Of a DNA stretch of 64,000 nucleotides, positions 12,155-39,364 are shown piece by piece; positions within the stretch are counted from its first letter, which is position 1, and the number at the start of each line of letters is the position of its first letter. The stretch is from Flagellatimonas centrodinii. Its GTDB lineage: Bacteria; Pseudomonadota; Gammaproteobacteria; Nevskiales; Nevskiaceae. The notes under the pieces are model-generated. The model was given only the letters and a program-made list of their open reading frames with translations, did no database searches and was not told the DNA's origin. Position numbers and translations under genes: made by a program. The stretch spans positions 2,480,001-2,544,000 of the forward strand of contig NZ_CP092104.1 of the NCBI RefSeq assembly GCF_016918765.2. The letters are read 5' to 3'.

Positions 12155-12188
12155 CTGTCATATAAATGTCATCTGACTGTCATATGGT
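12155..12188 (+). promoter_or_regulatory. Pho box (PhoB-binding) with three half-sites, and -10, of the pst operon
   Basis: CTGTCAT at 12155, ATGTCAT at 12166 and CTGTCAT at 12177 are spaced exactly 11 bases apart, the signature of tandem PhoB binding. TATGGT at 12183 can be the -10, as PhoB replaces the -35 function. It lies about 60 bases before pstS, so the operon should be induced by phosphate starvation. Confidence 0.88.
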
Positions 12189-12244
12189 GTCCAACAGCGG
12201 CCCCCAAGATGGTGGCCACTGCCCATTCATTCGAGGACAGCTCC

Positions 12245-13321: not shown

Positions 13322-13417
13322 CCATCAGAGTCGTTGGCGTAGCACGCCGCGATCCGGGGTCGCTCCCGGGCCGTGACGTGCTGCAGCCGATGACCGCAAT
13401 CAAGGGTGCAATCAACA

Positions 13418-14650: not shown

Positions 14651-14737
14651 TCCGAGAGCCCGGTATGGCACCTGCATCGACTTTCGCGCTGTTCAGGCTG
14701 GCATTCCCTCACCGTTGTGGGCGGAGGGCTTCTGTCC

Positions 14738-17002
14738 ATGTCTGACGCTGTGGATGCCGGGCCGGTGGCGTCGTCCGAGCGCTCCATCGTGGGCGGCAAG
14801 TCGGCGCAGATGCGAACCCGCTACCTGCGTGACAGTGTCGCCAGATGGGTCGTCTGGGGTGGGGGTCTCGGTGTGATCGGCGCCTTGATGCTGATCTTCT
14901 TTTATCTGGTGTCCGAGGTGATGCCCCTGTTCGGGGGCGCCACCGTCACGCCGCGGGCGCCGATGACATTGCCTGGAGGCGGTACCACCGTCTATTTGGC
15001 GGCCGAAGAGCAGGGCGAGGTCGGGTTCCGGTTGACCGAGGCCGGAGCCGGTCAGTTCTTCAATCTCGACAATGGTGAACCGCTGGCATCGCAGGCCCTG
15101 CCGATGGCGGGTGCGCGGGTGTCGGCGGTAACCGATGTGAATCGCGAGGACGCTCTACTGGCCGTGCAGCGCACTGATGGCGATGTGGTGCTGGTGCAAC
15201 AGAAATATGCCGTGCGGTTCGATCCGCAACAGCGGCGGATGATCACGCCGAGTCTGGCGTTCCCGTATGGCGAGGCCCCGTTGGCCTTTACGGCGACCGG
15301 CGGGCGATCGTTGGCGGTACGCATGGCTAACGGCCAGATGGTTTTGGCGGCAGTCGACGGCTCGGCCTCGGTGGCGTTGCGGCGGTATTCGGTCCAGTCC
15401 TCGCTGTTTGGCGACAGTACATTGGCGGCGCAGCCGCTGACCTCGGTAACTCTCCCGTTCGCGGCTGATCGGGTCCTGCTGGATCCGCTGATCGGATGGC
15501 TGTACGTCGCCAACGATGCGACGGGGCGGATCGCCCTGCTGTCGCTGCGGGGCGCCGAGCCGACGTTGGTGGACACGGTCGAGGTTGGGGGCGCCTTGCG
15601 AGACCTCAGTCATTTGGCCGGCGGCATCTCGGTGGTCGCGGCACAGGCTGACGGCAACATCAGTCAGTGGTTTCCCGCGCGCCGCGACGATGGCCGTTAC
15701 TACTTGGCCCGGGTGCGCGACATCAAGGCCTTCGGCAATGATCGGATTACCACCCTCGGCGTGGAGATGCGCCGCCGCACAATCGCGGTCGGCGATAGTG
15801 CTGGCGAGGCCGTGTTCCTGCACGGCACCGCCGGTGATGAGGTGTGGTCGGGCAAACTGCTGGATGCACCGATCGAAGCGTTGGTGTTCAACTCGCGCGC
15901 CAATTTTCTGATGGCGTTGGGCGCCGACGGCAGCTTCCAGGGATTCGACGTGCACAACGAGCACCCCGAAGTGTCGTTCAGTGCGCTCTGGCAGAAGGTC
16001 TGGTACGAGGGCTATGACGAGCCGCGGTGGTTATGGCAGTCGTCAGCCGCGAGCAGTGACTTCGAACCCAAGTTCAGTTTGACGCCGCTGGCGTTCGGGA
16101 CCCTCAAGGCCGCTTTTTACGCCATGCTGTTTGCCATTCCGATGGCGATACTCGGGGCGATCTACACGGCCAACTTCATGTCCTCGGAGATGCGTCAGGC
16201 GGTCAAGCCCACCATCGAGCTGATGGAAGCTCTGCCGACCGTGATTCTCGGATTTCTTGCCGGGTTGTGGTTGGCCCCGTTTGTCGAATCGAATCTCCCC
16301 GGGGTATTTCTGACCCTGGTGCTGCTGCCGTTGTCGATCCCGCTGTTCGGCTATCTCTGGATGCGGATGCCGCGTTCAATCCGCCTTCGCGTACCGCCAG
16401 GATGGGAGGCCGGCCTGTTGATCCCGGTCGTGAGTGTCATCGTCTGGTTGTGCTTCGTCGTCGCCAAGCCGATCGAGGCCCTGGCTTTTGGCGGCAATAT
16501 GCAGAGCTGGATGGACCACACGCTGGGGATCGGCTATGACCAGCGCAATGCCCTGGTGGTCGGCATCGCCATGGGGGTGGCGGTGATCCCCACCATCTAC
16601 TCGATCACCGAGGACGCTATCTTCAGCGTGCCCAAACAGTTGTCGCTGGGCTCGCTGGCGTTGGGGGCCACGCCCTGGCAGACCCTGATCGGCGTCGTGC
16701 TGCCGACCGCCAGCCCCGGCATATTCTCGGCCGTGATGATCGGCACCGGCCGCGCCGTAGGCGAAACCATGATCGTGCTCATGGCCACCGGCAATACCGC
16801 GGTGATGGACTTCAGCATGTTTGAAGGCTTGCGCACCATGTCCGCCAACATTGCGGTTGAAATGCCGGAATCCGAAGTCGGCAGTACCCATTTCCGGCTG
16901 TTGTTCCTGGCTGGGCTGGCGCTGTTCCTGTTCACCTTCCTGTTCAACACGCTGGCGGAGATCGTGCGCCAGCGGTTGCGACAGAAGTACGCCTCCATCT
17001 GA
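14738..17002 (+). CDS. pstC: Phosphate ABC transporter permease PstC, with large periplasmic insert
   Basis: Inner-membrane permease. At 754 aa it is much longer than the roughly 320 aa E. coli PstC. One membrane helix (about residues 45-68) is followed by about 370 residues with beta-propeller-like strands, then the normal permease core beginning near FGTLKAAFYAMLFAIPMAIL. The coupling region reads LGSLALGATPWQTLIGVVLP and GRAVGETMIVLMATGN. Long forms occur in pseudomonads, so the insert is a lineage trait. ATG 14738 has GGAGG ten bases upstream. Confidence 0.92.
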   Translation: MSDAVDAGPVASSERSIVGGKSAQMRTRYLRDSVARWVVWGGGLGVIGALMLIFFYLVSEVMPLFGGATVTPRAPMTLPGGGTTVYLAAEEQGEVGFRLTEAGAGQFFNLDNGEPLASQALPMAGARVSAVTDVNREDALLAVQRTDGDVVLVQQKYAVRFDPQQRRMITPSLAFPYGEAPLAFTATGGRSLAVRMANGQMVLAAVDGSASVALRRYSVQSSLFGDSTLAAQPLTSVTLPFAADRVLLDPLIGWLYVANDATGRIALLSLRGAEPTLVDTVEVGGALRDLSHLAGGISVVAAQADGNISQWFPARRDDGRYYLARVRDIKAFGNDRITTLGVEMRRRTIAVGDSAGEAVFLHGTAGDEVWSGKLLDAPIEALVFNSRANFLMALGADGSFQGFDVHNEHPEVSFSALWQKVWYEGYDEPRWLWQSSAASSDFEPKFSLTPLAFGTLKAAFYAMLFAIPMAILGAIYTANFMSSEMRQAVKPTIELMEALPTVILGFLAGLWLAPFVESNLPGVFLTLVLLPLSIPLFGYLWMRMPRSIRLRVPPGWEAGLLIPVVSVIVWLCFVVAKPIEALAFGGNMQSWMDHTLGIGYDQRNALVVGIAMGVAVIPTIYSITEDAIFSVPKQLSLGSLALGATPWQTLIGVVLPTASPGIFSAVMIGTGRAVGETMIVLMATGNTAVMDFSMFEGLRTMSANIAVEMPESEVGSTHFRLLFLAGLALFLFTFLFNTLAEIVRQRLRQKYASI

Positions 17003-17011
17003 CGCTCCGCC

Positions 17012-18730
17012 ATGACCGACCCGACTCCCCGATCGAGCCGCGACGCCCTGGTGGCGCGTGATACTGCAAGCGTCAGTGCCTACGTCAAGTCCGGTCAGCC
17101 CTATGTCTGGCTGACCGGCTCGGCGGTGGCGGCCAGCATCATCATCACCGTGGCGCTGTTGGTCCTGATCATGGTCCGTGGCATGGGGCATTTCTGGCCG
17201 GCGGACATGGTGCAGGCCGCGTACCAGCCTCCGGAACGAAGCGCCGAGGTGGTGCTGGCCGAGATTCGCAGCGAGGAAGAAGTGACCGTCGCCCGTCTGC
17301 TCAATGCAGGTTTGCCGGTCGACGCCGACCAGGCGCTGTATGACCGTCTGCTGTTGAAGGTGGGGAACCGCGATCTGCTTGGGGTTGATTTTCGCTACGT
17401 GCTGTCGGATTGGCTGGTCGAGCGCAGCTATCCGCGTGATGTGGTCGTCCTCGAGCGCACAGAGTGGGGCAACTTCCACGGCTTTCTCGATGCCGTGGTG
17501 GTTGACGGTCAGACGCTTGCGGGCGAGGAGGCTTGGACGGCCTACCGTGGTGCGCAGAAGCGGGCCAACGATCTACGTGACCAGATCCACGATATCGAGC
17601 GGGGTCGCATTGGTCGTATCAATTACGAGCTGGAGCGGCTGCGCCTGACCGAGCGTCGGTTGGCGTTGGATGGCCGCAGTCGCGACGCCGACCCGGGTGC
17701 GTACACCGAGCTGGACGCGCAGCGGACAGCGCTCGATGCCGAGTACGCGGAGATCAGTCAGCAGCGTACGGCCCTGTATCAGGCGCTGGGCCGCGACCAG
17801 CTGCAGCTCCGGACCGTAGATGGCCGTTCACTGACCATGCCGCTGTCGAAGGTACTGCATGGGCATCGTCCGAATGCGATGAATGTGTTGCAGAAGGTCG
17901 GATTCTGGTTTGCCAAGCTGTGGGAGTTCGTCAGCACCCAGCCGCGCGAGGCCAATACCGAAGGCGGCATTTTTCCGGCGATCTTCGGCACGGTGCTGAT
18001 GGTGCTGTTGATGTCGGTCTTCGTGACCCCGTTCGGTATCCTCGCCGCCCTGTATCTGCGCGAGTACGCCAAACAGGGCACGCTGACCCGCATCATCCGC
18101 ATTGCCGTGAACAATCTTGCCGGTGTGCCTTCCATCGTCTACGGCATGTTCGGGCTCGGCTTCTTCGTCTATCTGGTCGGCGGCAATATCGACCGGCTGC
18201 TCTACCCCGAAGCAGCGCCGGCCCCGGTGTTCGGAACGCCCGGTATTCTCTGGGCTTCGTTGACCTTGGCGATCCTCACATTGCCGGTGGTGATCGTCGC
18301 CACCGAAGAAGGGCTGGCGCGCATCCCCCGGCATCTTCGCGAAGCCTCGCTTGCACTGGGCGCCACCAAGGCAGAAACCTTGTGGCGGGTGGTGCTGCCG
18401 ATGGCCAGCCCGGCCATGATGACCGGACTCATTCTCGCCATCGCCCGCGCTGCCGGTGAAGTGGCGCCGCTGATGCTGGTCGGCGTGGTCAAGCTGGCGC
18501 CGAATCTGCCGCTGGACTTCAATTTCCCGTTCCTGCATCTCGACCGCAAGTTCATGCATCTCGGGTTTCATATCTATGATGTGGGCTTCCAGAGCCCCAA
18601 CGTGGAGGCCGCGCGGCCGCTGGTTTACGCGACCTCCTTCCTGCTGGTGGTGGTGATCATGGTGTTGAACCTCACGGCGGTGATGATCCGCAACCGGTTG
18701 CGCGAGCGCTATAAAGCGCTGGACAACTGA
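17012..18730 (+). CDS. pstA: Phosphate ABC transporter permease PstA, with coiled-coil insert
   Basis: Second permease subunit, 572 aa. A first helix (about residues 32-55) is followed by about 270 extra residues, including a long charged heptad-like segment around residues 170-275 (for example [20 protein letters not shown]) that looks like a coiled coil. The permease core begins near [20 protein letters not shown]; its coupling loop is [20 protein letters not shown] and [12 protein letters not shown]. Ten bases after pstC. The paired inserts in PstC and PstA probably contact each other outside the membrane (inference). Confidence 0.92.
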
Positions 18731-18758
18731 CCTCCCGCCCCGACACGAGGCAAGAGTC

Positions 18759-19619
18759 TTGGACAACGAAAACATGACCGGAACCCAGAACAAGACGCCC
18801 CTGACCCAGGGGATTGACGTCGACGCCCTCAGCCGCTCACGCGAACCCACGGCGATGGATCAGGAAACCATTGCTCTGGCGGTGGAAGATCTCAACCTCC
18901 ATTACGGCGACAACCATGCCCTGAAGGGGGTCAACCTGCAGATACCGGAAAAGAAGGTGACCGCCTTCATCGGCCCCTCAGGCTGCGGCAAGTCGACCCT
19001 GTTGCGGTGCTTCAATCGCATGAATGACCTGGTGGACGACTGTCGCATCGGGGGCCAGATCCGCCTGCATGACAAGAATATTTTTGATCGCGATGTCGAT
19101 GTTGCCATGTTGCGTCGTCGGGTCGGCATGGTGTTCCAGAAGGCCAATCCGTTTCCCAAGTCGATCTATGAAAACGTCGCATACGGGCTGCGTCTAGGCG
19201 GCGTCGACAAGAAGCGAACACTCGATGAAACGGTGGAATGGGCCTTGCGTGGCGCCGCCCTGTGGGACGAGGTCAAGGACCGGCTCGACCAGTCGGCACT
19301 GGGCCTGTCCGGCGGGCAGCAACAGCGACTGGTCATTGCCCGCGCCATCGCCATCCAGCCCGAAGTGATCCTGCTCGACGAACCCTGCTCGGCGCTGGAC
19401 CCGATTTCCACGCTCAAGGTCGAGGAGCTGATCAACGACCTCAAGCGCGATTACACCATCGTCATCGTTACCCACAACATGCAGCAGGCGGCGCGGGTTT
19501 CCGACTACACCGCGTTCATGTACGTCGGCAATCTGGTTGAAGTCGGCAATACCGACCAGGTGTTCACCAAGCCGCAGAAGAAGCAGACCGAGGACTACAT
19601 CACGGGGCGGTATGGCTGA
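18759..19619 (+). CDS. pstB: Phosphate ABC transporter ATP-binding protein PstB
   Basis: ATPase of the phosphate importer, 286 aa. Walker [10 protein letters not shown], signature [14 protein letters not shown], Walker [14 protein letters not shown] and switch His in [14 protein letters not shown]. The TTG start at 18759 has GAGG eight bases upstream; the ATG at 18774 has no ribosome-binding site, so the TTG is preferred. It sits 28 bases after pstA and carries an N-terminal extension of about 40 residues before the ABC fold. Confidence 0.94.
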
Positions 19620-19685
19620 TGATGGCACTGCGCGCCATCATCAGCATCGCACAGTCCGCAGCACGATCCATCAGAGACTTTCGTC

Positions 19686-20405
19686 ATGACCACACCCGCC
19701 TACAAGCAGCACATCTCCAGCCAGTTCAACGCCGAACTGGAGGATATCCGTCAGCGGGTATTGGCGATGGGGGGCATGGTCGAGCAGCAGATTGTCGACG
19801 CCACGCGCGCCCTGATCGACCTCGATAGCGACCTTGCCAGTTCGGTGATCAAGAACGACAGCAAGGTCAACCAGCTGGAAGTGGTGATCGACGAGGAGTG
19901 TTCCCGGGTGTTGGCGCGGCGGCAGCCGACCGCCAGCGACCTGCGGCTGGTGCTGGCGGTGACCAAGGTCATTACCGACCTTGAGCGTATCGGCGATGAG
20001 AGCGAAAAGATCGCGCGCATGGCGCTTGACCTGTCCAAGCAGGAGCGGCTCGGGCACGGCATGCTGGAGGTGCAGCACCTGTCGCGGCATGTTTCGCAAA
20101 TGGTGCGTGACGCACTCGATGCCCTGGCCCGTATGGATACCGACGCTGCCCTGGCCGTTGCGCGCGAGGATCAGGTCATCGATCGCGAATACGAGGCGGT
20201 GATGCGGCAGTGCATCACCTTCATGATGGAAGATCCGCGCACGATCCGGCGGGTGATGGACATCGTGTGGTCGGTGCGGGCGCTTGAGCGAATCGGTGAC
20301 CACGCCAAGAACATCGCCGAACACGTCATTTATTTCGTCAAGGGCAAGGATGTCCGCCATGTTTCGGTCGACGCCATGGAGAAGGCAGTCCGCAAGACCG
20401 AATAA
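19686..20405 (+). CDS. phoU: Phosphate-signalling regulator PhoU
   Basis: Helical metal-binding protein, 239 aa, that links PstB activity to the PhoR/PhoB system and damps phosphate uptake. Two PhoU repeats are visible, each with an acidic metal motif: TDLERIGDESEKIARM in the first and RALERIGDHAKNIAEHV in the second. Last gene of the pst operon. No phoB or phoR is present in this window, so they lie elsewhere. Confidence 0.93.
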   Translation: MTTPAYKQHISSQFNAELEDIRQRVLAMGGMVEQQIVDATRALIDLDSDLASSVIKNDSKVNQLEVVIDEECSRVLARRQPTASDLRLVLAVTKVITDLERIGDESEKIARMALDLSKQERLGHGMLEVQHLSRHVSQMVRDALDALARMDTDAALAVAREDQVIDREYEAVMRQCITFMMEDPRTIRRVMDIVWSVRALERIGDHAKNIAEHVIYFVKGKDVRHVSVDAMEKAVRKTE

Positions 20406-29520: not shown

Positions 29521-29557
29521 CTGTCATGAAGGTGTCATCCAACTTTCACAAGATAGC
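29521..29557 (+). promoter_or_regulatory. Pho box in front of the TonB-dependent receptor
   Basis: CTGTCAT at 29521, GTGTCAT at 29532 and CTTTCAC at 29543 repeat at exactly 11 bases, the same three-part architecture as at pstS. GATAGC at 29552 is a possible weak -10. This predicts PhoB control of the receptor and lipoprotein genes. Confidence 0.75.
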
Positions 29558-29697
29558 GACCGTCGATTCGTAGCCTGACGCAGGTGGCGAATCGATCGAA
29601 GCGGGCAGCCCCCGTTTTGCCGACCTTGGATTCTCGCGATGTCCCGTAGCGCGCTCGGCGCGGCCTCGGATCGCGCAATAGATGGAAGCCCTTGCGA

Positions 29698-32600
29698 ATG
29701 ATGCGGTCTCTGAAAGTGGTGATGTTGTCGAGCGCCCTGCTGCTGTCGCCGGCCGCAATCGCGGCGGACCTGCTGGTCAACACGTTTCTGCAGAGTCGGC
29801 CATTCAAGGGTGTCGAGCTGGAGCTGAACGGCAAGCTGGTGGGTGAAACCGGTGCTCTGGGCGAAGCCAAGGCGACGCTGGACGTCGGCCGCCATTCGCT
29901 GCGTCTGCTCAAGAACGGTATCCCGCTGGCGGACTACGATTTTCGACTGGCGGAGGGCGAAAACGCTGAGCTGAGCATCACCTTCACCAATTTCGACACG
30001 CCCCCTGATTTCGCCCTTGAAACCTATGCTGAGGGCGAGGGCGCCGATGTCGACGCGACCGGTACGATCGGTGGTGATGTCATGTCGGCTGACGGCCAGC
30101 CGATCGTGGGCGCGACCGTCGGCGTCGCAGAGGCCGCGGGCACCGCGCTGACCAACGACAACGGCGTGTTTGAGCTTGAGTTGCCGCGGGGCGCTTACAC
30201 CCTGCAGATCTCACATCCCGATTATCAGCCTGTCGAAACGGCGGGCTTCCGGGTGGTGGCCAATGTTGGATTGGCGACCCAGGTCAAGCTCTACCCCATT
30301 GCAGGGAGTTCCAGTACAGCGTTGACCGCGACCGCTGATGAAGAAGTGGTGGTGCTGGGGACCTACAAGCCGAGTGAAAACACGGTCGACCTTGAGCGCT
30401 TCTCCGTCGCCATCACCGATGCCATCAGCATTGACGAACTGCTGCGCCTGGGTGACAGCGATGTGGCGGCCAGTCTTCGGCGTCTGGTGGGGGTGTCAGT
30501 GACGGGCGGTCGGTACGCGATCGTTCGGGGCCTGGATGGACGCTATATCTCGTCGAGCTTCAATGGCAACTTGATGCCGAGCACCGATCCCTACCGCCGG
30601 GATATCCAGCTTGATCTGTTTCCCTCTGACATCCTCTCTGGAATTGAAGTCCAGAAGACCTTTTCGGCTGATCTCCCCGGTGACACGACGGGTGGGAACA
30701 TCAAGGTCAAGACCTTGGGCATGCCAACCGAAAACTTCACCAAGATCGGCCTTTCGACAGGGTGGGTGTCGGGCGTGACAGGGAAGGACAGCCTGACCTA
30801 CCAGGGTGGCGACGGTGATCGATTTACCTTCGATGATGGCACCCGGGAACTGCCGAATGCGGCCCGTCCGCTGACCCGGCCTGGCGCATCTCTGAGCACC
30901 GATCAGCGCCGCGCTGCCAGTCTTGCGCTCAACAATATCCTGAACCCTCAGCGCAGCGAACACGACCTCAATTATGGCTTTTCCGCTTCGCTTGGGAGGC
31001 TATTCAGCCTGGCAAATGGCGAGCTCGGCATCGTCGTTGTCGGCGCCTACGATCAAGAGAGCGCGGCGAAGCAGGATGCCTTCGAGGCACGTGACTATTT
31101 CGTCGCCCTGAATCCCGGCCAGTTTGGCATTGCCGAACCCCTGACGCGCTATACCGAAGACTTCAAGCTCGCCAAGCTCACCGGCTACGGCGCGGTGACG
31201 TTCGAATCGAATGCCGGTTGGACAGTGGCCAGCAAGACGACCTTTCTCCGCGACTCTGAAGACAGTGTGCGAACGGACCTCGGCCCCAGTCTGGCGGAGC
31301 CAGACCGGATCATCGACCGTACCACCCTGGAATGGGTGGAGCGCGAATTCATCGCGCAACAGTTCGACGGCGCGCTACCGCTATTCGGCGGTGGCCATGA
31401 GTTGACCGGCTCACTCGCCTACTTCCGTACCCTGCGCGATGCGCCGGATCGTCGTCGCTACGACTACTCCAATGGTCGTTTCAGCGGCTTGGAGCGCAAC
31501 TATTCGTTGCTCGACGAGGACGGTATCTCGCTTGCCTCCGCTTATGCAATTGACCATCAGCTGTTCGGTCTCCAGAGCGGCACCTTGCGGGTTGGACTTG
31601 AACTGTCGAAGTTTGACCGAACCGCTGACGTGTTCAGTTTGCTGCTGTCACCGACCGAAATCGTCGATACCGATGAGCGAAACCTCGAGCTGGCAGTCGC
31701 CGAGTCGCTGAGGCAGGGCCGTGGCCTGTATGGCCCCGGGAGCCTGTCGACCGATTCCTATACCGCCGATCAGACCCTGACTGCCGCCTTCGTTACGCAT
31801 GAGGCCGATCTCAACGACGCCTGGAATATCGTCGCCGGGGTTCGCTTCGAGCAGTATGAACTCGATCTGGTTTATCCGAACCAACTGAGCGCGGGCAGCC
31901 TCACTGAAGATACCGACGCGCTCCCCAGCATCCTGGTCACCTATCGACTGTCGGACGCGTGGCAATTGCGAGGCGGCTACAGCAAGACCATCAGTCGGCC
32001 GAACATCACCGAGCGCAGTCGTTCGCGTTTCTTTGACGACGAGGGGCGGCTGATCATCGGCTGCCTGCAGGCCGGCGGTTGCCGTCAGGCCGAGATCGAC
32101 AACTTCGATGTCCGGGCTGAGTACTACTTCAACGAAGCCGACAGCGTCAGTGTCGCCGTGTTCTACAAAGACATCACCGATCCGTTGGAGTTGTCGCTGG
32201 CGACGCGCACCGCAGACATCCGACCGCTGCAGTACCTGAACAATCCCGGCGCAACCTTGCAGGGCATTGAGCTGGATTTGAACAAGCGGCTGAGCTGGGA
32301 CGCCTGGGGTGCGGAAATCGGCGCCAATCTGTCGGTGATCGATTCGGAAGTCGAGCTTGGAACCGCGGCGAGCCAGTTCGAGGGCGGCGGCGATCGGGAG
32401 CTGCAGGGTCAGTCCGAGTTGCTAGGCAACCTCCGGGCAACGCTCGAACACTTTGCCACCCGGCAGATGGTGACGCTTTCCGCCAACTATTTCGATGACC
32501 GCATCGACCGCCTCGGTCTGGGTCAGGAGCCGTCGATCCTTGAGGCCGGACGCCTACTGATCAATCTCAACTATGAGTGGGATGTGACCGAGGCCCTGGG

Positions 32601-32721
32601 TCTCAGCGCGAAGGTGATCAACCTGCTGAACGAGCCGGTGGAGTACACACAGGGTGCGTTGCTGGTTGAACGTTACGAAACCGGGACCGGTGTCACCGCC
32701 GGGATTTCCTATCAATTTTAG
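29698..32721 (+). CDS. TonB-dependent outer-membrane receptor with two N-terminal accessory domains
   Basis: 1007 aa. Signal peptide (SLKVVMLSSALLLSPAAIAA) is followed by a small beta domain (residues about 25-110), a carboxypeptidase-regulatory-like domain (TIGGDVMSADGQPIVGATVG, about 120-200), a TonB-box-like EEVVVLGTY, the plug (RRLVGVSVTGGRYAIVRGLD, then SDILSGIEVQKTFSADLPGD), and a 22-strand barrel ending in ITAGISYQF-like VTAGISYQF. ATG 29698 has GGAAG nine bases upstream; TTG 29692 and ATG 29701 are in frame. Substrate unknown; the Pho box suggests a phosphorus compound. It pairs with the lipoprotein downstream and the TonB system after it. Confidence 0.92.
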   Translation: MMRSLKVVMLSSALLLSPAAIAADLLVNTFLQSRPFKGVELELNGKLVGETGALGEAKATLDVGRHSLRLLKNGIPLADYDFRLAEGENAELSITFTNFDTPPDFALETYAEGEGADVDATGTIGGDVMSADGQPIVGATVGVAEAAGTALTNDNGVFELELPRGAYTLQISHPDYQPVETAGFRVVANVGLATQVKLYPIAGSSSTALTATADEEVVVLGTYKPSENTVDLERFSVAITDAISIDELLRLGDSDVAASLRRLVGVSVTGGRYAIVRGLDGRYISSSFNGNLMPSTDPYRRDIQLDLFPSDILSGIEVQKTFSADLPGDTTGGNIKVKTLGMPTENFTKIGLSTGWVSGVTGKDSLTYQGGDGDRFTFDDGTRELPNAARPLTRPGASLSTDQRRAASLALNNILNPQRSEHDLNYGFSASLGRLFSLANGELGIVVVGAYDQESAAKQDAFEARDYFVALNPGQFGIAEPLTRYTEDFKLAKLTGYGAVTFESNAGWTVASKTTFLRDSEDSVRTDLGPSLAEPDRIIDRTTLEWVEREFIAQQFDGALPLFGGGHELTGSLAYFRTLRDAPDRRRYDYSNGRFSGLERNYSLLDEDGISLASAYAIDHQLFGLQSGTLRVGLELSKFDRTADVFSLLLSPTEIVDTDERNLELAVAESLRQGRGLYGPGSLSTDSYTADQTLTAAFVTHEADLNDAWNIVAGVRFEQYELDLVYPNQLSAGSLTEDTDALPSILVTYRLSDAWQLRGGYSKTISRPNITERSRSRFFDDEGRLIIGCLQAGGCRQAEIDNFDVRAEYYFNEADSVSVAVFYKDITDPLELSLATRTADIRPLQYLNNPGATLQGIELDLNKRLSWDAWGAEIGANLSVIDSEVELGTAASQFEGGGDRELQGQSELLGNLRATLEHFATRQMVTLSANYFDDRIDRLGLGQEPSILEAGRLLINLNYEWDVTEALGLSAKVINLLNEPVEYTQGALLVERYETGTGVTAGISYQF

Positions 32722-32726
32722 TCATC

Positions 32727-32745
32727 GTGGGCGGGCGTCGCCCAC
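32727..32745 (+). repeat. Hairpin between receptor and lipoprotein genes
   Basis: GTGGGCG / CGCCCAC with a five-base loop, five bases after the receptor stop. There is no T-run, so it is more likely an mRNA-stability or processing stem than a terminator. Confidence 0.45.
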
Positions 32746-32789
32746 ATTCCGTAGGCCAGTTGGCCAGTTCAATGCAGAGGAGTTTTAGC

Positions 32790-34196
32790 ATGCGTAAGCA
32801 GCTCTATGTGGCACCGATGGTGAGCGCTTTCACGCTGGCCATGGCCGCGTGTTCGAGTGGCGGTGGTGGTGGTGGCACGCCGATTCCGGATCCGGATTTC
32901 GTCAGCTGCCAAGGCTCGCAGTGCACCCTCCAGGGTGTCATTGATGAAAACTATACCTTGACCGCCGATCGTGAATGGACCCTTCGGGGGTTCGTGCGTG
33001 TGGGTCGTGGCAACGAATCGCTGGACACCTCGGCAGCGATCGCCCAGGCGAAGGCTGATGGCGTGACGCTGACGATCGATGCCGGTACCCACGTCCGCGC
33101 CGAGCGTCTGGCGTCACTTGCGGTAACCCGTGGCTCCAAGATCAATGCAGTGGGCCGCGCTGACGCGCCGATCACCTTCAGCTCCGCCGAAGATGACGAT
33201 TTTGCAGGTGAGGGCGAATGGGGTGGCATCATCCTCCAGGGGTTCTCCCGTCAGTTTGGCAAGGGCGATACCGGCGCCTGTGATTCCAGCGGTCAGCTCT
33301 GCAATGTGCCCGGTGAGGGCGGCCCCGATGTCGGCTTCTACGGCGGCAGCGACGTCGGCGACAGCAGCGGCACCATGCGGTATGTCCGCATGGCCGAGGG
33401 CGGTGTGGCTTTCGATGCAAACAACGAAATCAACGGTCTGACCCTTCAGGGTGTGGGGCACGGCACCACGCTTGAGTACATTCAGGTGCAGGGCAACCAG
33501 GACGATGCCGTCGAGTGGTTTGGCGGTACGGTGAACGCCCGATATCTGGTGCTGACCGGCAATGACGACGACGATATTGACTACGACGAAGGCTATCGCG
33601 GCAATATCCAGTTCGTGATTGCGCAGAAAGATCCGAACAAAGCTGCGCCTACCGGTGGTAACGATCCGCGTGGCATTGAGGCCAATAGCGGTGGTAGCGA
33701 CTTCGTCAGCACCACCGAAGCCAAGATTGCCAACCTGACGCTGATCAGCGGGCCGATCAGCAACTCGCCGAATTCCGCACAGCCTGGAGCATTGTTGCGC
33801 GGTGCGGTCAAGACCGACCTGATCAACACCGCCATCAAGGGCTACAACGGGGGCTGTATCCGTATTCAGGACGCTCCGTCTGTCAATGCGGTGGTGAACC
33901 TTGTCAATGTGTTCGGCGATTGTGGTGGCAACTACTACTTTGATGCCCGTCAGGCCGACAGCTCCAACGTCGCGTCGGCAGAGCGCGGCGTGTCGTTCGA
34001 CGCCGCCTGTGCCATCACCAATGGCGATGCCGTGTTGGCTGCGCCGGTCTCGGTGACCGCGGTGAACAACGGCTCCGGCTTCCAGTTCACGTCGACCAAC
34101 TATGTCGGCGCTGTTCAGCCGGGTACGGCTGCCAATCAGGCTTGGTGGGCGGGCTGGACCTTCCCCGGCACGGTGACCTGCAACACCGCCCCGTAA
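32790..34196 (+). CDS. Beta-helix surface/periplasmic lipoprotein paired with the TonB receptor
   Basis: 468 aa from ATG 32790, which has GAGGAG upstream. Signal peptide MRKQLYVAPMVSAFTLAMAAC ends at a Cys followed by a Ser/Gly linker, so probably a lipoprotein although the lipobox is imperfect. The body is rich in short repeating strands: TIDAGTHVRAERLASLAVTR, EWGGIILQGFS, SGTMRYVRMAEGG, LTLQGVGHGTTLEYIQVQGN. DAVEWFGGTVNARYLVL and the acidic GNDDDDIDYDEGYRG follow, fitting a parallel beta-helix with a cation-binding patch. Proteins of this kind often sit beside TonB receptors; some databases mislabel them as multidrug transporters (memory). Function unproven; substrate capture for the receptor is inferred. 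Confidence 0.8.
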   Translation: MRKQLYVAPMVSAFTLAMAACSSGGGGGGTPIPDPDFVSCQGSQCTLQGVIDENYTLTADREWTLRGFVRVGRGNESLDTSAAIAQAKADGVTLTIDAGTHVRAERLASLAVTRGSKINAVGRADAPITFSSAEDDDFAGEGEWGGIILQGFSRQFGKGDTGACDSSGQLCNVPGEGGPDVGFYGGSDVGDSSGTMRYVRMAEGGVAFDANNEINGLTLQGVGHGTTLEYIQVQGNQDDAVEWFGGTVNARYLVLTGNDDDDIDYDEGYRGNIQFVIAQKDPNKAAPTGGNDPRGIEANSGGSDFVSTTEAKIANLTLISGPISNSPNSAQPGALLRGAVKTDLINTAIKGYNGGCIRIQDAPSVNAVVNLVNVFGDCGGNYYFDARQADSSNVASAERGVSFDAACAITNGDAVLAAPVSVTAVNNGSGFQFTSTNYVGAVQPGTAANQAWWAGWTFPGTVTCNTAP

Positions 34197-34226
34197 GGGG
34201 ATGATGGTTGGAGCATTTCAGCCAGG

Positions 34227-34260
34227 GAGGCGGCGATCATTTGATCGCCGCCTCTTTTTT
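34227..34260 (+). terminator. Strong rho-independent terminator after receptor-lipoprotein operon
   Basis: Perfect 13-bp stem (GAGGCGGCGATCA / TGATCGCCGCCTC) with a two-base loop, then six T. It separates the receptor/lipoprotein pair from the TonB energising genes, which therefore need readthrough or their own promoter. Confidence 0.93.
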
Positions 34261-34287
34261 GCGGTACCGAAAGTTGAGGAAAAGCTT

Positions 34288-35061
34288 ATGAAGGGACCCA
34301 TTCGATTGATCACGGCGCTACCGTTGGCGCTGTTGTTCTCGGCAGGGGCAGTCCACGCCCAGGCGCTCGACAGCGTCGTCAAGGAAGGTGAAGCCAAGGC
34401 ACAGGAAGGGCGCGCTTCTCAAAAGAAAATCGACAGCATTGTCGATGCGCAGCAGGAGCGGTTGATCACCTACCGCGCATTATTGAAGCAGGTCGAAGGG
34501 CTCGAACAGTACAACGAGCAGTTGACCACCCAAATTTCCGGCCAGCAGGCGCTGATCGAACGCTTTGACGCGTCGATCAAGCAGGTGGCCACCATCGAGC
34601 GGCAGATGCAGCCGCTGATCACACGGATGTCGGAGAGCCTGGCGGATTTCGTCGATCTCGACCGCCCGTTCCATGTGGCGGAGCGCCAGGAGCGCATCGC
34701 CCATCTCAATGACACCCTGGCGAAGGCCGATATCGATGTCGCCGAGAAGTTCCGGCAGGTCATCGAGGCCTACCAGATCGAGACCGAGTACGGCCGCAAG
34801 ATCGATACCTACCAGGACATCATCCAGATTGACGGACAGGACCTCGAGGTCGACGTGCTGCGCTTCGGGCGCATTGCACTGGTGGCGCAGAGCAAGGACA
34901 CCTCGACCACGGTCGTCTGGAACACTCAGACCGAGGCATGGGAGCCTCTGGATGCCGGTGACTATCGCAACAGTGTTCGTCGCGGAATTCTGATGGCGAG
35001 CAAGCAGGCGTCGATTGATGTCGTGACGCTCCCCATCGCTGCACCGGAGGCCGCGGAATGA
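34288..35061 (+). CDS. DUF3450 family periplasmic coiled-coil protein
   Basis: 257 aa with signal peptide (MKGPIRLITALPLALLFSAG, cleavage near VHAQA). Mostly long helices with heptads (residues about 30-180), then a C-terminal beta-like part containing GRIALVAQSKDTSTTVVWN. ATG 34288 has TGAGGA upstream; an in-frame start at 34201 would translate through the terminator and is rejected. It overlaps the next gene by ATGA. The DUF3450 protein is the usual first gene of TtpC-type TonB clusters in Vibrio and relatives; its role there is poorly defined, perhaps a periplasmic partner of TtpC. Confidence 0.87.
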   Translation: MKGPIRLITALPLALLFSAGAVHAQALDSVVKEGEAKAQEGRASQKKIDSIVDAQQERLITYRALLKQVEGLEQYNEQLTTQISGQQALIERFDASIKQVATIERQMQPLITRMSESLADFVDLDRPFHVAERQERIAHLNDTLAKADIDVAEKFRQVIEAYQIETEYGRKIDTYQDIIQIDGQDLEVDVLRFGRIALVAQSKDTSTTVVWNTQTEAWEPLDAGDYRNSVRRGILMASKQASIDVVTLPIAAPEAAE

Positions 35062-36422
35062 AGCCCTTGAATCTTGTTGCCCCGTTGGGGCTGGCCATGG
35101 CTGCGCTGCTGCTTCCTGTGCACAGCCTGGCGCAGGAAGGCAAGGATGCCGTGTCGATGACCCAGTTGCTCAAGGAAGTGCGCGCGGGACGTACCCGCGA
35201 TGCCGCCGAGAACAAGCAGCGTGAAGCGGCGTTTCTGGCAGACCGCGCCCAGCAGGATGCCCTGATCCGGCAGGCCGAGCAGCGCATCGCTGCACTCGAG
35301 GCCCGCAGTGCCGAGCTGGAGCGCAGCTTCAATGCCAATGAGTTGCAGGTCGAGGAAAAGCGTGCGCAGCGCGATGAGCGGCTGGGGTCATTGAAGGAAC
35401 TGTTCGGTCACCTGACCGGTGCTGCCGGCGATCTTCGCGCCCGTCTCGGCGCGTCGATCACGACCAGTCAGTTCGCCGGCCGCCAGCAGTTTCTCAGCGA
35501 TCTGATTTCCAAGATGAATGATGACACCGAGCTGCCAACGGTCGCCGAGATCGAACAGCTGTGGTTCGAAATGCACCGCGAGCTCACCGAGTCGGGGCGG
35601 GTGGTGAAGTATCCGGCACAGGTCGGCACCGAAGACGCCCGTGAGATCGTCCGTGTCGGGTTGTTCAATCTGGTATCCGACGGCAAGTACCTGGCTTACG
35701 ACGAGAACACCCGCAGTGTCTCGGTGTTGCCGCGTCAGCCCGAGGGCTTCACCCGTGGCGCCGCCGCCCTGCAGGCTGCCTCGGCCGGGTTCACCCCGCT
35801 CGGCATCGACCCCACCGGGTCCGCCGGCGGCGGGTATCTGAAGGCGCTGATCAACACGCCGACACTGGTCGAGCGCTGGCACCAGGGTCGTCTGGTGGGC
35901 TACGTGATCACCGCCGTTGGCGCACTGGGCCTGCTGTTGGCGTTGTGGCGCCTGGTGGTGCTGACGCAGGTGGCCGCCAAGGTCCGCCGTCAGCGGACGG
36001 CCGCCACGGCCAGCGACGACAATCCGCTGGGCCGTGTGCTGCTGGCCGGGGAGGCCCATGCCGGTGACGATATCGAAACCCTCGAGGTCAAGCTGGGCGA
36101 GGCCATCATCAAGGAGCGTCCCGCGCTGCAGAGCGGCCTGCCACTGCTGAAGATCATCGCCATGGTGGCGCCGTTGCTGGGGCTGCTGGGTACCGTGACT
36201 GGCATGATCATCGTGTTCCAGGCCATCACCATCTATGGTGCCGGTGATCCCAAGGCGATGGCCGGTGGTATCTCCAGCGCACTGGTGACGACGGTGTTGG
36301 GCTTGCTGGTGGCGATCCCGATGCTGTTGCTGCACACCGTGCTGAATGGTCGGGCCCGCGAGCTACTGCACGTGCTGGAAGAGCAGACCGCCGGTCTGGT
36401 CGCCCAGCGTGTCGGTCGCTGA
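35058..36422 (+). CDS. TtpC-like MotA/TolQ/ExbB proton-channel fusion
   Basis: 454 aa. Signal-like N-terminus (MKPLNLVAPLGLAMAALLLP), then a periplasmic coiled coil (about residues 30-125) and a folded region. A membrane helix follows (VGYVITAVGALGLLLALWRL), then the ExbB core: LKIIAMVAPLLGLLGTVTGM and SSALVTTVLGLLVAIPMLLL. The long periplasmic domain fused to an ExbB channel matches TtpC, needed by Vibrio TonB2 systems. Overlaps the DUF3450 gene by four bases and precedes a normal ExbB. Confidence 0.88.
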   Translation: MKPLNLVAPLGLAMAALLLPVHSLAQEGKDAVSMTQLLKEVRAGRTRDAAENKQREAAFLADRAQQDALIRQAEQRIAALEARSAELERSFNANELQVEEKRAQRDERLGSLKELFGHLTGAAGDLRARLGASITTSQFAGRQQFLSDLISKMNDDTELPTVAEIEQLWFEMHRELTESGRVVKYPAQVGTEDAREIVRVGLFNLVSDGKYLAYDENTRSVSVLPRQPEGFTRGAAALQAASAGFTPLGIDPTGSAGGGYLKALINTPTLVERWHQGRLVGYVITAVGALGLLLALWRLVVLTQVAAKVRRQRTAATASDDNPLGRVLLAGEAHAGDDIETLEVKLGEAIIKERPALQSGLPLLKIIAMVAPLLGLLGTVTGMIIVFQAITIYGAGDPKAMAGGISSALVTTVLGLLVAIPMLLLHTVLNGRARELLHVLEEQTAGLVAQRVGR

Positions 36423-36446
36423 TCGCCACCGCAACGGACATCGGCC

Positions 36447-37016
36447 ATGCTGCTGTTTCTACTGGACGCACGGGAGGCCATCGGCGAGTTCTTTACCGCC
36501 GGTGGCCCCATCCTGCGCCTGATCGCGCTGCTGACCTTCGTCATGTGGGTGATGATTCTCGAGCGCTTCGCCTACTACACCCGGCCGTTCCATCAGGACC
36601 TGCGGCAGGCGCTCGCCGTCTGGTCCGGGCGCCGTGACCACTACTCCTGGTATGGCGATGCGGTTCGTCGCCAACTGGTATCGGAACTGCGGGCGAAGGT
36701 GAACCAGCATTTGCGATTGATCAAGGTGATGATCGCCCTCTGCCCATTGTTCGGGCTGCTGGGCACCGTCACCGGGATGATCGACGTGTTCAGCATCCTC
36801 GCCATCACCGGTGGCGGCGATGCCCGCTCGATGGCCGGAGGCGTGTCGCGCGCCACCATCCCGACGATGGCCGGCATGGTCGCCGCGCTGTCCGGGGTTT
36901 TCGGAAATATCTATCTGTCCCGGTTGGCGACCCAGCGGCGCGAGCATATCGACGCACTGCTGCCGATCCATCACCTGGACGCCGCGCCCGAGGAGGGCAC
37001 TGCCCATGGCACGTAA
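36447..37016 (+). CDS. exbB: ExbB proton-channel subunit
   Basis: 189 aa MotA/TolQ/ExbB protein. Helix 1 about residues 20-40 (PILRLIALLTFVMWVMILER), core IALCPLFGLLGTVTGMIDVF and TIPTMAGMVAALSGVFGN. Short ExbB2 type without a periplasmic domain. With ExbD it should form the proton channel driving TonB. The exbD start lies inside its last 11 bases. Confidence 0.92.
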   Translation: MLLFLLDAREAIGEFFTAGGPILRLIALLTFVMWVMILERFAYYTRPFHQDLRQALAVWSGRRDHYSWYGDAVRRQLVSELRAKVNQHLRLIKVMIALCPLFGLLGTVTGMIDVFSILAITGGGDARSMAGGVSRATIPTMAGMVAALSGVFGNIYLSRLATQRREHIDALLPIHHLDAAPEEGTAHGT

Positions 37017-37416
37017 TTACGTCAGTCAGGACGAGTCGGAAGACGAAGGCGCGATCGACCTCACGCCGATGCTCGACGTCGTCTTCATCATGCTGATCTT
37101 CTTCATCGTCACCGCCAGCTTCATCAAGGAGACCGGTGTCGAGGTGAACCGGCCGCAGGCGCAGACGGCGGAAAACAAGAACGCCGCCGTGCTGATTGCC
37201 ATCAATGCCGACAACACCATCTGGATGGACCAGCGCCGTATCGACATCCGTTCGGTGCGCGCCAATGTCGAGCGGATGCACGCCGAGAACCCCGAAGGGG
37301 CGGTGGTGATCCAGGCCGACGAGCTGGCTTCGGTGAAAACCTTCACCGAAGTGCTGGACCAGGCACGCCAGGTGGTGCCGCCTGAGCGGGTGTCGCTGGC
37401 GACGAAGTCGAAGTAA
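37006..37416 (+). CDS. exbD: ExbD/TolR energising protein
   Basis: 136 aa from ATG 37006, with GAGGAG upstream. A single membrane helix contains the proton-carrying Asp: DLTPMLDVVFIMLIFFIVTA. The periplasmic domain ends with VIQADELASVKTFTEVLDQA. Overlaps exbB by 11 bases, so translation is coupled. Confidence 0.93.
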   Translation: MARNYVSQDESEDEGAIDLTPMLDVVFIMLIFFIVTASFIKETGVEVNRPQAQTAENKNAAVLIAINADNTIWMDQRRIDIRSVRANVERMHAENPEGAVVIQADELASVKTFTEVLDQARQVVPPERVSLATKSK

Positions 37417-37428
37417 CGGAGAACAGTC

Positions 37429-38037
37429 ATGCGTTTGATGATGGTGTTGGTACCTGCGGCCCTGGTGACCTTTGGCTTGCAGATGGTGATGGTGACCCTG
37501 ATTCAGTTCGCCGACGGTCGGCTCGACAAGACGCCGGTCATCAAACTGCCGGACATCTACATGCCGAAGGCCGAGATCCAGACGCAGCGATCGGTCGAGA
37601 AGCCCGAAAAGCCGCAGCTGGACGACACGCCGCCGCCCGACGTACCGCAACAGGCCTTCGATCAGGTCGATGGCAACGCCCAGGTCGGGTTGCTGTCCGG
37701 CCCCAGCCAGGTCGCGACCAACCTTGATCTGAGCATGGGGTCGGGCCTGTCGGCGACCGACGGGGAGTATTTGCCGATCGTCAAGGTTGCGCCGAACTAC
37801 CCCCGGGCTGCACTCAGCCGGGGTCTGGAGGGCGATGTCATCCTCGAGTACACCGTGACCAAGCAGGGCTCGGTGCGGGACCCGGTGGTGATCGAAAGCA
37901 GTAACCCGACCTTCAATGCCGCCGCCATGGAATCGGCAATGCGCTACAAGTACAAGCCGCGGGTGGTCGACGGTTCGCCGATCGAAGTCCCGGGCGTGCG
38001 CACGCGCGTGATGTTCCGCCTCGACAAGTCGTCCTGA
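37429..38037 (+). CDS. tonB: TonB energy transducer
   Basis: 202 aa. N-terminal membrane anchor (PAALVTFGLQMVMVTLIQFA), a short Pro-rich span (EKPEKPQLDDTPPPDVP) and a C-terminal TonB domain: VAPNYPRAALSRGLEGDVIL, then SNPTFNAAAMESAMRYKYKP. The Pro-rich spacer is short compared with E. coli TonB, as in TonB2 types; TtpC may bridge the gap to the outer membrane (inference). Twelve bases after exbD. Confidence 0.92.
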   Translation: MRLMMVLVPAALVTFGLQMVMVTLIQFADGRLDKTPVIKLPDIYMPKAEIQTQRSVEKPEKPQLDDTPPPDVPQQAFDQVDGNAQVGLLSGPSQVATNLDLSMGSGLSATDGEYLPIVKVAPNYPRAALSRGLEGDVILEYTVTKQGSVRDPVVIESSNPTFNAAAMESAMRYKYKPRVVDGSPIEVPGVRTRVMFRLDKSS

Positions 38038-38041
38038 GGCG

Positions 38042-39364
38042 ATGTCGATGATCTTTCGGATACTCCGTGCCGTGTGGCTGGTGGCTGCCGTATCGGTGGC
38101 TGCTCCGGCCTGGTCGCAGCAGGGCGCCATCGATGCGCGGACGTTCGAGCAGCTGAGCAAGGCGCAGACGCTGGCCGAGGAAGGACAGCATGATGAGGCC
38201 ATCGCCGTGCTCGACGGGCTTAAGGACAACCCGCGTCTGAACAGCTATGCCCGTTCGCAGCTCTGGAACTTCTATGCCTACATCCATGCCAGCCGCAATC
38301 AGTATGCCAAGGCGATCGATGCCTACCAGAACGTGCTGGCCGAAGAGGACGCCTCCGACGGCCTCAAGCTGACCGCCAAGTACACCACGGCGCAGTTGTA
38401 CTTCCAGTTGGAGAAGTACGATGAGTGCATCCGCTTCATGGAAGACTGGCTGATCACGGTCGACGATCCCACGCCGACCGCGCACATCATGCTGGCGCAG
38501 GCCTACTACCAGAAGTCCGACTTCGATCGGGCGCTGCGCAACGTCGACCGCGCCATTCTGCTGGCCGACAAGGCCGGGGCCAAGATCGACGAATCGTGGC
38601 TGCGTCTGAAGGCGGCGATGTACTACGGCAAGAAGGACTACAAGAACACGGCAGCGGTCTACGAGCAGATGATCAGCCTGTATCCCAAGCTGAGCTACAT
38701 GCGGCAGCTGGCGGGCATGTACAGCGAGTTGGGAGAGGATTCGCGGCGCTTGGCGATCTATGACGCCGTGTACGAGCACGGCGGCCTCAGTTCCGAGAAC
38801 GAGGTGCTGAACCTCGCGTACATGTGGCTGGGGCAGCAGGTGCCCTACAAGGCCGGGCGGATCATTGAAACGGGTATGGCCAACGGCCAGATCAAGGAGA
38901 ATCCGAAGAACATCGAGACTCTCGCCAACGCCTGGGCGCAGGCCAACGAGGCGAACAAGGCGGTGCCGGCATTACGTCGCGCTGCCGAGCTGTCGGGGGA
39001 CGGTGTGATGTACGCGCGTCTGGCCGGTGTTCATTTCAACGCCGGTGACTACGACGAAGCGGCCACGGCGGCTGCCAAGGCGGACCAGCTGGGCAACCTC
39101 AAAAGCCGTAGCGGCAACCTGATGCTGATGGGCATGGCCTACTTCAATGCGGCCGAGTACGAGCCGGCACTACAGGCCTTTCGCCGTGCCAAGCAGGACA
39201 AGGCCACCTATGCGACGGCCGCCAAGTGGGAGTCCTACACCCTGGCGGAGGTCGAGCGTCTGCGGGCGATCGAGGCCAGCCGCTTCGAACTGCAACGGCG
39301 CACCGAAGAAGCGCTCGACGCTCAGGAGAACAATCTCGACGCGCTGGGTCTCGGCGGTTCCTGA
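38042..39364 (+). CDS. Periplasmic TPR-repeat protein closing the TonB cluster
   Basis: 440 aa with signal peptide (MIFRILRAVWLVAAVSVAAPA, cleavage near WSQQ). Helical repeats of the tetratricopeptide kind through most of the protein, such as AYQNVLAEEDASDGLKL and LAQAYYQKSDFDRALRNVDR. TPR proteins commonly end TtpC/TonB2 operons. ATG 38042 lies 5 bases after tonB with TGAGG upstream. Probably a scaffold for the TonB complex in the periplasm; no direct evidence. Confidence 0.85.
   Translation: MSMIFRILRAVWLVAAVSVAAPAWSQQGAIDARTFEQLSKAQTLAEEGQHDEAIAVLDGLKDNPRLNSYARSQLWNFYAYIHASRNQYAKAIDAYQNVLAEEDASDGLKLTAKYTTAQLYFQLEKYDECIRFMEDWLITVDDPTPTAHIMLAQAYYQKSDFDRALRNVDRAILLADKAGAKIDESWLRLKAAMYYGKKDYKNTAAVYEQMISLYPKLSYMRQLAGMYSELGEDSRRLAIYDAVYEHGGLSSENEVLNLAYMWLGQQVPYKAGRIIETGMANGQIKENPKNIETLANAWAQANEANKAVPALRRAAELSGDGVMYARLAGVHFNAGDYDEAATAAAKADQLGNLKSRSGNLMLMGMAYFNAAEYEPALQAFRRAKQDKATYATAAKWESYTLAEVERLRAIEASRFELQRRTEEALDAQENNLDALGLGGS

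Follow-up and report, generated by a model that had tools for sequence, protein, structure and literature searches.

A predicted Pho-controlled cassette joining an ElpS-type receptor/lipoprotein unit to a TonB motor in Flagellatimonas centrodinii

Phosphate limits growth across much of the ocean and soil. To our knowledge, phosphate crosses the outer membrane as a rule only via passive porins, and powered phosphorus uptake across this membrane has hardly been described outside Bacteroidota. The closest described systems, cited here from the accessible parts of each source, resemble one or the other half of the locus reported below. In Caulobacter crescentus, ElpS is reported to be a ~50-kDa surface-exposed outer-membrane lipoprotein that is specifically upregulated in phosphate starvation, stimulates extracellular alkaline phosphatase and is released in a manner dependent on the type II secretion system (T2SS); its gene, elpS (cc0170), is arranged with cc0171 and T2SS genes (PMC2996285). 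Flavobacterium johnsoniae FI, FII and FIII share 31-36% identity with ElpS at 50-54% coverage and are induced on phosphate depletion (first value of their table rows, 9.9-14.5, taken without its column heading), and FI and FII adjoin induced TonB-dependent transporters (TBDTs) (PMC8115612). The tonB2 operon of Vibrio vulnificus consists of ttpB (DUF3450), ttpC, exbB, exbD, tonB and ttpD (TPR), and the TonB3 operon, which has no established function, opens with a receptor gene (PMC6957404, PMC10734418). In Caulobacter, a variety of TonB receptors are reported to be under PhoB control (PMC11208175), and among TonB motors driven by Pho the closest precedent comes from Pseudomonas aeruginosa, phdA-pdtB-exbB2D2-tonB4 (PMC4971064). 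Here we describe a locus of Flagellatimonas centrodinii in which a Pho box, a TonB-dependent receptor, an ElpS-type lipoprotein and six motor genes stand in a row. It lies in the window, the 64,000-nucleotide stretch that we analysed (positions 2480001-2544000 of contig NZ_CP092104.1), which is part of a two-contig 3.6-Mb genome.

We propose that these genes would form a PhoB-controlled, TonB-driven outer-membrane uptake cassette, a reading to which we assign a probability of roughly 0.58. Its support is at the level of sequence and consists of the box, the gene identities, the family memberships, the recurrent linkage of the receptor/lipoprotein pair (the unit) with a motor, and the enrichment of Pho boxes. 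We found no description of a TonB motor dedicated to an ElpS-type unit in the accessible parts of the open-access literature, a scope outside which most subscription papers fall.

The Pho box and the eight genes behind it

The features of the locus, with two rows of context from the same window, are as follows (coordinates in the window, strand, description).

29521..29549, +, Pho box with three repeats and an 11-bp period, 148 bp 5' of the receptor ATG
29698..32721, +, TonB-dependent receptor, 1007 aa; signal peptide, N-terminal beta region with CarboxypepD_reg, TonB-box-like motif, plug, barrel
32790..34196, +, ElpS-type lipoprotein, 468 aa from a putative ATG; lipobox AMAAC (by eye), right-handed parallel beta-helix (model)
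34226..34260, +, terminator-like GC-rich hairpin and T-run between lipoprotein and motor
34288..35061, +, DUF3450 protein (TtpB-type, named after accessible parts of PMC6957404), N-terminus signal-peptide-like
35058..36422, +, TtpC-like protein with a long N-terminal region and a C-terminal ExbB/TolQ domain
36447..37016, +, ExbB
37006..37416, +, ExbD, single transmembrane helix carrying Asp24
37429..38037, +, TonB, 202 aa, TonB_C
38042..39364, +, TPR protein (TtpD-type, named after the same source)
12155..12183, +, second Pho box of the window, 5' of pstS (context, outside the cassette)
12206..20405, +, pstS (start uncertain), OprO/OprP-type porin, pstC, pstA, pstB, phoU (context, outside the cassette)

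The Pho box at 29521-29549 reads CTGTCAT-GAAG-GTGTCAT-CCAA-CTTTCAC, with an exact 11-bp period, and fits 19 of the 21 consensus positions of CTGTCAY direct repeats. When the three-unit pattern was searched with up to three mismatches in the whole 3.6-Mb genome, seven matches appeared, some of them overlapping; the pattern written backwards had no match genome-wide, and a second-order Markov null of 2 Mb contained no site at score 19. Three sites of the genome have one mismatch, the cassette box among them. Another, at 12155, heads pstS-porin-pstC-pstA-pstB-phoU in the same window, and the remaining one lies 5' of a glycosyltransferase gene (Pfam Glyco_trans_1_3); a two-mismatch site lies 5' of a metallophosphoesterase gene. 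These are the sites whose downstream genes were identified; an overlapping three-mismatch pair lies at C1:1736137-1736176. The accessible parts of a Flavobacterium study count a glycosyltransferase and PlcP among the genes for lipid remodelling in the low-phosphate response (PMC8115612). The genome encodes one PhoB above the NCBIfam cut-off. Because the box stands here and such boxes are enriched before the units of relatives (see below), Pho control of the receptor and lipoprotein is supported as a prediction.

Judged by eye, the most probable start codon of the receptor is ATG 29698 and not TTG 29692. It has Plug, barrel and CarboxypepD_reg domains in Pfam and a TonB-box-like motif, EEVVVLG, recognised by eye. 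Its structure model matches TonB-dependent transporters of many kinds and gave no hint of the cargo. The invariant Arg and Lys residues of the receptor might have hinted at anion binding, a reading that we dropped because several of them presumably belong to motifs general for this receptor class.

The lipoprotein matched no Pfam family at E 1e-3 and no NCBIfam family, and its profile found no PDB sequence at E <= 10. Its N-terminus, FTLAMAAC-SSGGG, contains a lipobox (by eye). An AlphaFold2 model built from 54 sequences (pLDDT, the predicted local distance difference test, 89.6; pTM, the predicted template modelling score, 0.90) supports a right-handed parallel beta-helix. The best PDB matches of the model, at Z ~19-22, are tailspikes, alginate epimerases, PL6 lyases, polygalacturonases and NosD; parallel beta-helix proteins of this range have many activities, and the fold gave no hint of a substrate. 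Six acidic residues are invariant (D239, D240, E243, D261, D262 and D265, numbered from base 32787) and may form a metal or catalytic site.

With a profile of 17 relatives, family members were detected in 76 of the 100 genomes from the order that includes the Caulobacterales locus L122. Another Caulobacterales locus, L218, has the order lipoprotein, receptor, GspC, GspD, GspE, GspF, GspG, and in L214 GspD also adjoins. Since the order in L218 matches the elpS-cc0171-gsp arrangement, the window lipoprotein is placed with ElpS, on the basis of homology within the order and of gene order. Members of the family differ in size: many have two domains and ~900 aa (e.g., L041, L042, L065, L066, L067 and L068), that of the window has one, and that of the Alteromonas plasmid pBGP9 has three (1356 aa; L251 1861-5931). 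A 2OG-Fe(II) oxygenase gene adjoins the lipoprotein gene both in a Caulobacterales genome (L218 10834-11784) and on the Alteromonas plasmid (L251 863-1654).

The motor genes, DUF3450, TtpC, ExbB, ExbD, TonB and TPR, have the order and content of the Vibrio TonB2/TonB3 (Ttp) operons, and the MotA_ExbB domain of the TtpC-like fusion occupies residues 321-441 of 454. The window receptor sits two genes 5' of the motor, with the lipoprotein and the terminator-like hairpin between. Compared gene by gene, the motor is ~61-87% identical to block members in other families and ~25-59% identical to its three paralogues in the same genome.

An earlier reading of the letters alone (the sequence-only reading) had named a three-repeat Pho box, a TonB receptor and a beta-helix lipoprotein, followed by DUF3450, a TtpC-like ExbB fusion, ExbB, ExbD, TonB and TPR genes. 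The pattern scan, Pfam and the AlphaFold2 model bear out the first part, and domain matches the second. Its view that the individual parts are known families agrees with the Pfam matches, the ElpS kinship and the Ttp gene order, and the Pho control that it predicted for receptor and lipoprotein gains support from the local box and from the enrichment before the units of relatives.

Two further observations concern the surroundings. In the pst operon of the window, the frames for PstC (761 aa) and PstA (572 aa) are long, and PstC scores slightly under its NCBIfam cut-off. A PhoQ/PhoP-like pair of sensor kinase and regulator lies 3' of the cassette (39980-41988), under the PhoB and PhoR cut-offs; its response regulator (41302-41988) was considered as PhoB and dropped, as its best match is PhoP and its score is under the PhoB cut-off.

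Recurrence of unit, motor and Pho boxes in other genomes

To score promoters, we counted matches of 21 to three CTGTCAY units with an 11-bp period and took the best score in the 450 bp upstream. Receptor/lipoprotein promoters reached 15/21 or more in 53 of 91 cases, versus 30 of 386 other long open reading frames (ORFs) of the same loci, a comparison set that itself includes phosphate genes, namely PstS-type proteins and porins behind such boxes. The 91 were scored out of 103 given; the others had too little upstream DNA or did not have both genes on the strand. Resampled promoters reached 15 in ~2%, in a set that contained nine wrong-strand regions with little effect on composition.

The motors themselves showed a similar contrast. 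A score of at least 15 was found for 15 of the 24 motors adjoining an ElpS-type unit and for none of 16 unlinked DUF3450 motors (highest 13; one-sided Fisher 3.3e-5, the compared sequences being related rather than independent, so that p-values overstate the evidence). The 15 boxed linked motors come from at least seven families and two unassigned contigs. In all nine other genomes with both kinds scored, the linked motor scored higher than the unlinked one, and in the window genome the two tied at 12. An unlinked Vibrio motor scored 11. This contrast makes the link between unit and motor directly testable.

Other Pho-box-like sites lie within or beside the unit. They occur between receptor and lipoprotein in L235 (12635), L240 (9310), L241 (8446), L243 (5877) and L052 (12127), as if the lipoprotein in these loci had a Pho promoter of its own. 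In L101, a Pho box (19/21; 16156-16184) stands shortly 5' of gspD, after a lipoprotein-receptor pair.

Receptor, lipoprotein and motor co-occur in several gammaproteobacterial families and in other classes. The closest DUF3450 relatives (E <= 1e-65) are found in 10 of 85 genomes of the order, all ten of which carry the lipoprotein at E <= 1e-35, with the motor adjoining in eight. The eight-gene block is intact in L041, L042, L043, L045, L047 and L050. In G065 and in G062, the latter from the window genome's own family, the unit is followed by a motor with only ~39% DUF3450 identity.

A search with the lipoprotein profile, of which the best 80 matches were taken, gave 79 named loci, several of them on contigs that end within the locus. 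Motor genes were counted with profiles built here that also catch divergent DUF3450, and they were found in 28 of the 79: DUF3450 and ExbD beside the unit in 24, ExbD without DUF3450 in one and a single motor gene in three. Receptor and lipoprotein are both on one strand in 70 of the 79. About ten of the 24 motor-bearing loci, mostly from delta-type, Myxococcota and other bacterial contigs, have a divergent DUF3450 gene between or next to lipoprotein and receptor. A divergent motor, made of a distant DUF3450, two ExbB-type genes, ExbD and often TonB, was seen in L093, L107, L121, L123, L124, L126, L128, L136 and L146, which come from delta-type, Myxococcota and gammaproteobacterial contigs.

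Among 369 sampled gammaproteobacterial genomes, 28 carry the lipoprotein (E <= 1e-40), and 11 of 20 loci taken from 19 of these have motor genes within ~10 kb (one of the 20, L229, may repeat L087, and another, L247, overlaps an earlier locus). In a plasmid collection, a DUF3450 relative occurs in 22 records and the lipoprotein in 21, and both lie within 8 kb in 12. The Alteromonas macleodii plasmid pBGP9 carries, in a row, pstS, a 2OG-Fe(II) oxygenase gene, the lipoprotein, the receptor and six motor genes. Genomes of only 0.9-1.3 Mb (L246, L233 and L237; G226, G370 and G476) retain the receptor along with a lipoprotein of two domains.

A DUF3450 tree was built from 39 rows. It groups 24 linked and three unlinked motors in a single lineage, whose support of 92/88 is under the strict mark, and the other 12 unlinked motors fall outside it. 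L179 is absent from this tree and was kept in the promoter test; the divergent motors are also outside the tree. Strict monophyly of the linked motors was rejected (approximately unbiased test, 6e-9), with L062, L063 and L171 nested in the main lineage. One early association of unit and motor with later losses or exchanges fits these data, and so do two associations.

Proposed mechanism, cargo and rival explanations

In the uptake cassette that we propose, phosphate scarcity would lead PhoB to bind the three-repeat box and so induce both the receptor and the ElpS-type lipoprotein. Anchored at the outer membrane and, by analogy with ElpS, facing outward, the lipoprotein would capture a phosphorus source and pass it to the receptor. 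The TtpB-TtpC-ExbB-ExbD-TonB-TtpD complex would supply the proton-motive force that opens the plug, presumably that of this receptor, and the cargo, or phosphate freed from it, would then be imported by PstSCAB. In the window, the motor would be transcribed by partial read-through of the hairpin, with motor levels below receptor levels, and in many other lineages from the motor's own Pho box.

The neighbours of the unit bear on the cargo. Of 102 loci, 17 have PstS, PstC or PhoU genes in their stretches, with a PstS-type gene in 16, a fraction given without a control; three of four PstS-type proteins tested match NCBIfam PstS best, yet below the cut-off. In L081, L084, L085 and L090, pst genes and phoU lie 5' of the receptor. 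A scan of 129 neighbour ORFs of at most 900 aa, one from either flank of the unit and chosen by a simple length rule that may admit spurious ones, gave Response_reg (7), Trans_reg_C (7), GspC (7), a PstS-type domain (4), PhoU (4), DUF3450 (4) and PHO4 (2). As for a dedicated hydrolase, no phosphatase is among the 25 commonest of 135 neighbour families, a search that a rarer one would escape. Because genes for phosphate transport, regulators and secretion, and not phosphatases, are the most frequent neighbours, they fit a general phosphate supply rather than one phosphoester, and inorganic phosphate is a possible cargo. One tentative and rather doubtful extension sees the cassette as an equivalent of Pst at the outer membrane, that is, an energised, TonB-driven, high-affinity uptake of inorganic phosphate or a phosphate complex, with the ElpS-type lipoprotein capturing the ion at the surface. 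If true, it would overturn the passive-porin rule and assign a class of cargo to some, at least, of the TonB3-type motors.

The rival that survives best, which we consider unlikely, is that the Pho-controlled pair uses any TonB and that the adjacent motor is a general, constitutive one of the TonB2/TonB3 type serving other receptors. Several results favour it, and most of these also weigh against the cassette. No Pho box precedes the window motor (best score 12/21 in the 450 bp upstream), and the hairpin and T-run at 34226-34260 have an RNA fold z of -4.3, none of 200 shuffles being equally stable. This hairpin, which the sequence-only reading does not name, was found by a hairpin/T-run script and is not listed by a consensus scan; a similar one occurs in 15 of 22 gaps examined, the window's included, a count made without a shuffled control. 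The genome has four DUF3450 motors (four DUF3450 matches over the cut-off), G005 has the window-type motor lineage beside a different TonB receptor (Pfam) with no motor Pho box (score 13), and 51 of the 79 named loci, several on cut contigs, gave no motor gene next to the unit. Also against the cassette are the motor of G016, whose neighbour was not identified and which has no Pho box (score 13), the motors of L041, L042, L043, L045, L047 and L064, likewise without one (scores 11-13), six further linked loci of which only two reach 15 and four score 13-14, and three Pseudoalteromonas chromids with weak boxes (11-15). In Caulobacter, moreover, cc0171 is constitutive and ElpS is still produced in a cc0171 deletion, according to the accessible parts of the report (PMC2996285). 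Against a general motor, units repeatedly adjoin motors of different lineages, in more than one gene order, and Pho boxes precede linked motors and not unlinked ones. Because the gap from the T-run to the DUF3450 start is only ~27 bases and no sigma-70-like promoter emerged from a simple scan of the region, the window motor is probably reached by partial read-through that starts at the Pho promoter, which is the simplest explanation.

The sequence-only reading, which took the two halves, by inference, as a dedicated system for a large or scarce phosphorus compound, is partly supported. The results favour the predicted Pho control of the receptor/lipoprotein pair and a recurrent tie between the two halves. 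They do not support the reading in its original form: the window motor lies without its own box behind a terminator-like hairpin, most of the named loci gave no motor gene, and no result points to a large phosphorus compound.

We regard as improbable a second rival, that the lipoprotein is a surface or released accessory of extracellular phosphatases tied to the T2SS, as proposed for ElpS, with the receptor loosely involved and import not the main task. It draws on the reported phosphatase stimulation and T2SS-dependent release of ElpS (PMC2996285, accessible parts), on gspD in the stretches of 9 of 102 loci (without a control fraction) and on the GspC share of the neighbour ORFs (7/129). The window block, however, has no T2SS gene, and gspD was not found in 93 of the 102 loci, versus motor genes in 28 of 79. 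Equally improbable is a carbohydrate-active beta-helix lipoprotein in a system importing phosphate-rich or phosphorylated glycans. In its favour are the resemblance of the modelled fold to alginate epimerases, PL6 lyases, polygalacturonases and tailspikes, the invariant acidic residues and the glycan role suggested for FI/FII in the accessible text of PMC8115612. Against it, a shared beta-helix fold shows no function, and the 25 families most often met in the 129 neighbour ORFs include none of carbohydrate enzymes.

Comparison with known systems

The proposed uptake cassette joins three loose ends, namely ElpS-type lipoproteins, phosphate-starvation-induced receptors and TonB3-type motors. The unit is kept in three genomes of 0.9-1.3 Mb, and the whole cassette is plasmid-borne beside pstS in one case.

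Each comparison below is limited to the accessible text on the system concerned. The locus resembles ElpS (CC0170)/CC0171 of Caulobacter crescentus in having a lipoprotein of the same family beside a TonB receptor and a tie to phosphate starvation. In contrast, ElpS/CC0171 adjoin T2SS genes, CC0171 is reported to be constitutive and no TonB motor is mentioned, whereas in the window the receptor gene leads and six motor genes stand behind the pair. FI, FII and FIII with their TBDTs (Fjoh_0545/0546 and 3856/3857) are likewise ElpS-related outer-membrane lipoproteins induced by phosphate depletion, FI and FII beside a TBDT; unlike the window system, they belong to Bacteroidota with no dedicated motor described, and their comparison with the window protein is by description. 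PusCD (SusCD-like) also pairs a receptor with a surface lipoprotein, induced by low phosphate in PusCD, but PusD belongs to the SusD family, whereas the window lipoprotein has no SusD match (Pfam, E 1e-3) and is modelled as a beta-helix.

The motor half resembles TonB2/TonB3 (Ttp) of Vibrio vulnificus and Teredinibacter, which have the same six genes in the same order. TonB2, however, is iron-regulated and TonB3 is under Lrp/CRP, and no phosphate link or ElpS-type lipoprotein is mentioned for them. PUMA3 of Pseudomonas aeruginosa (phdA-pdtB-exbB2-exbD2-tonB4) shares a TonB motor expressed from a PhoB-bound Pho-box promoter (PMC4971064), but it depends on the sigma factor VreI and belongs with PdtA/PdtB, with no ElpS-type lipoprotein or Ttp genes mentioned; a PUMA3-type pair of extracytoplasmic function sigma/anti-sigma factors and an exoprotein pair are absent from the eight cassette genes. 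Because ElpS of Caulobacter and FI/FII of Flavobacterium precede it, the receptor/lipoprotein half is of a known kind; the motor half has the gene order of Vibrio TonB2/TonB3, and what is new is the coupling of an ElpS-type unit with a TonB motor.

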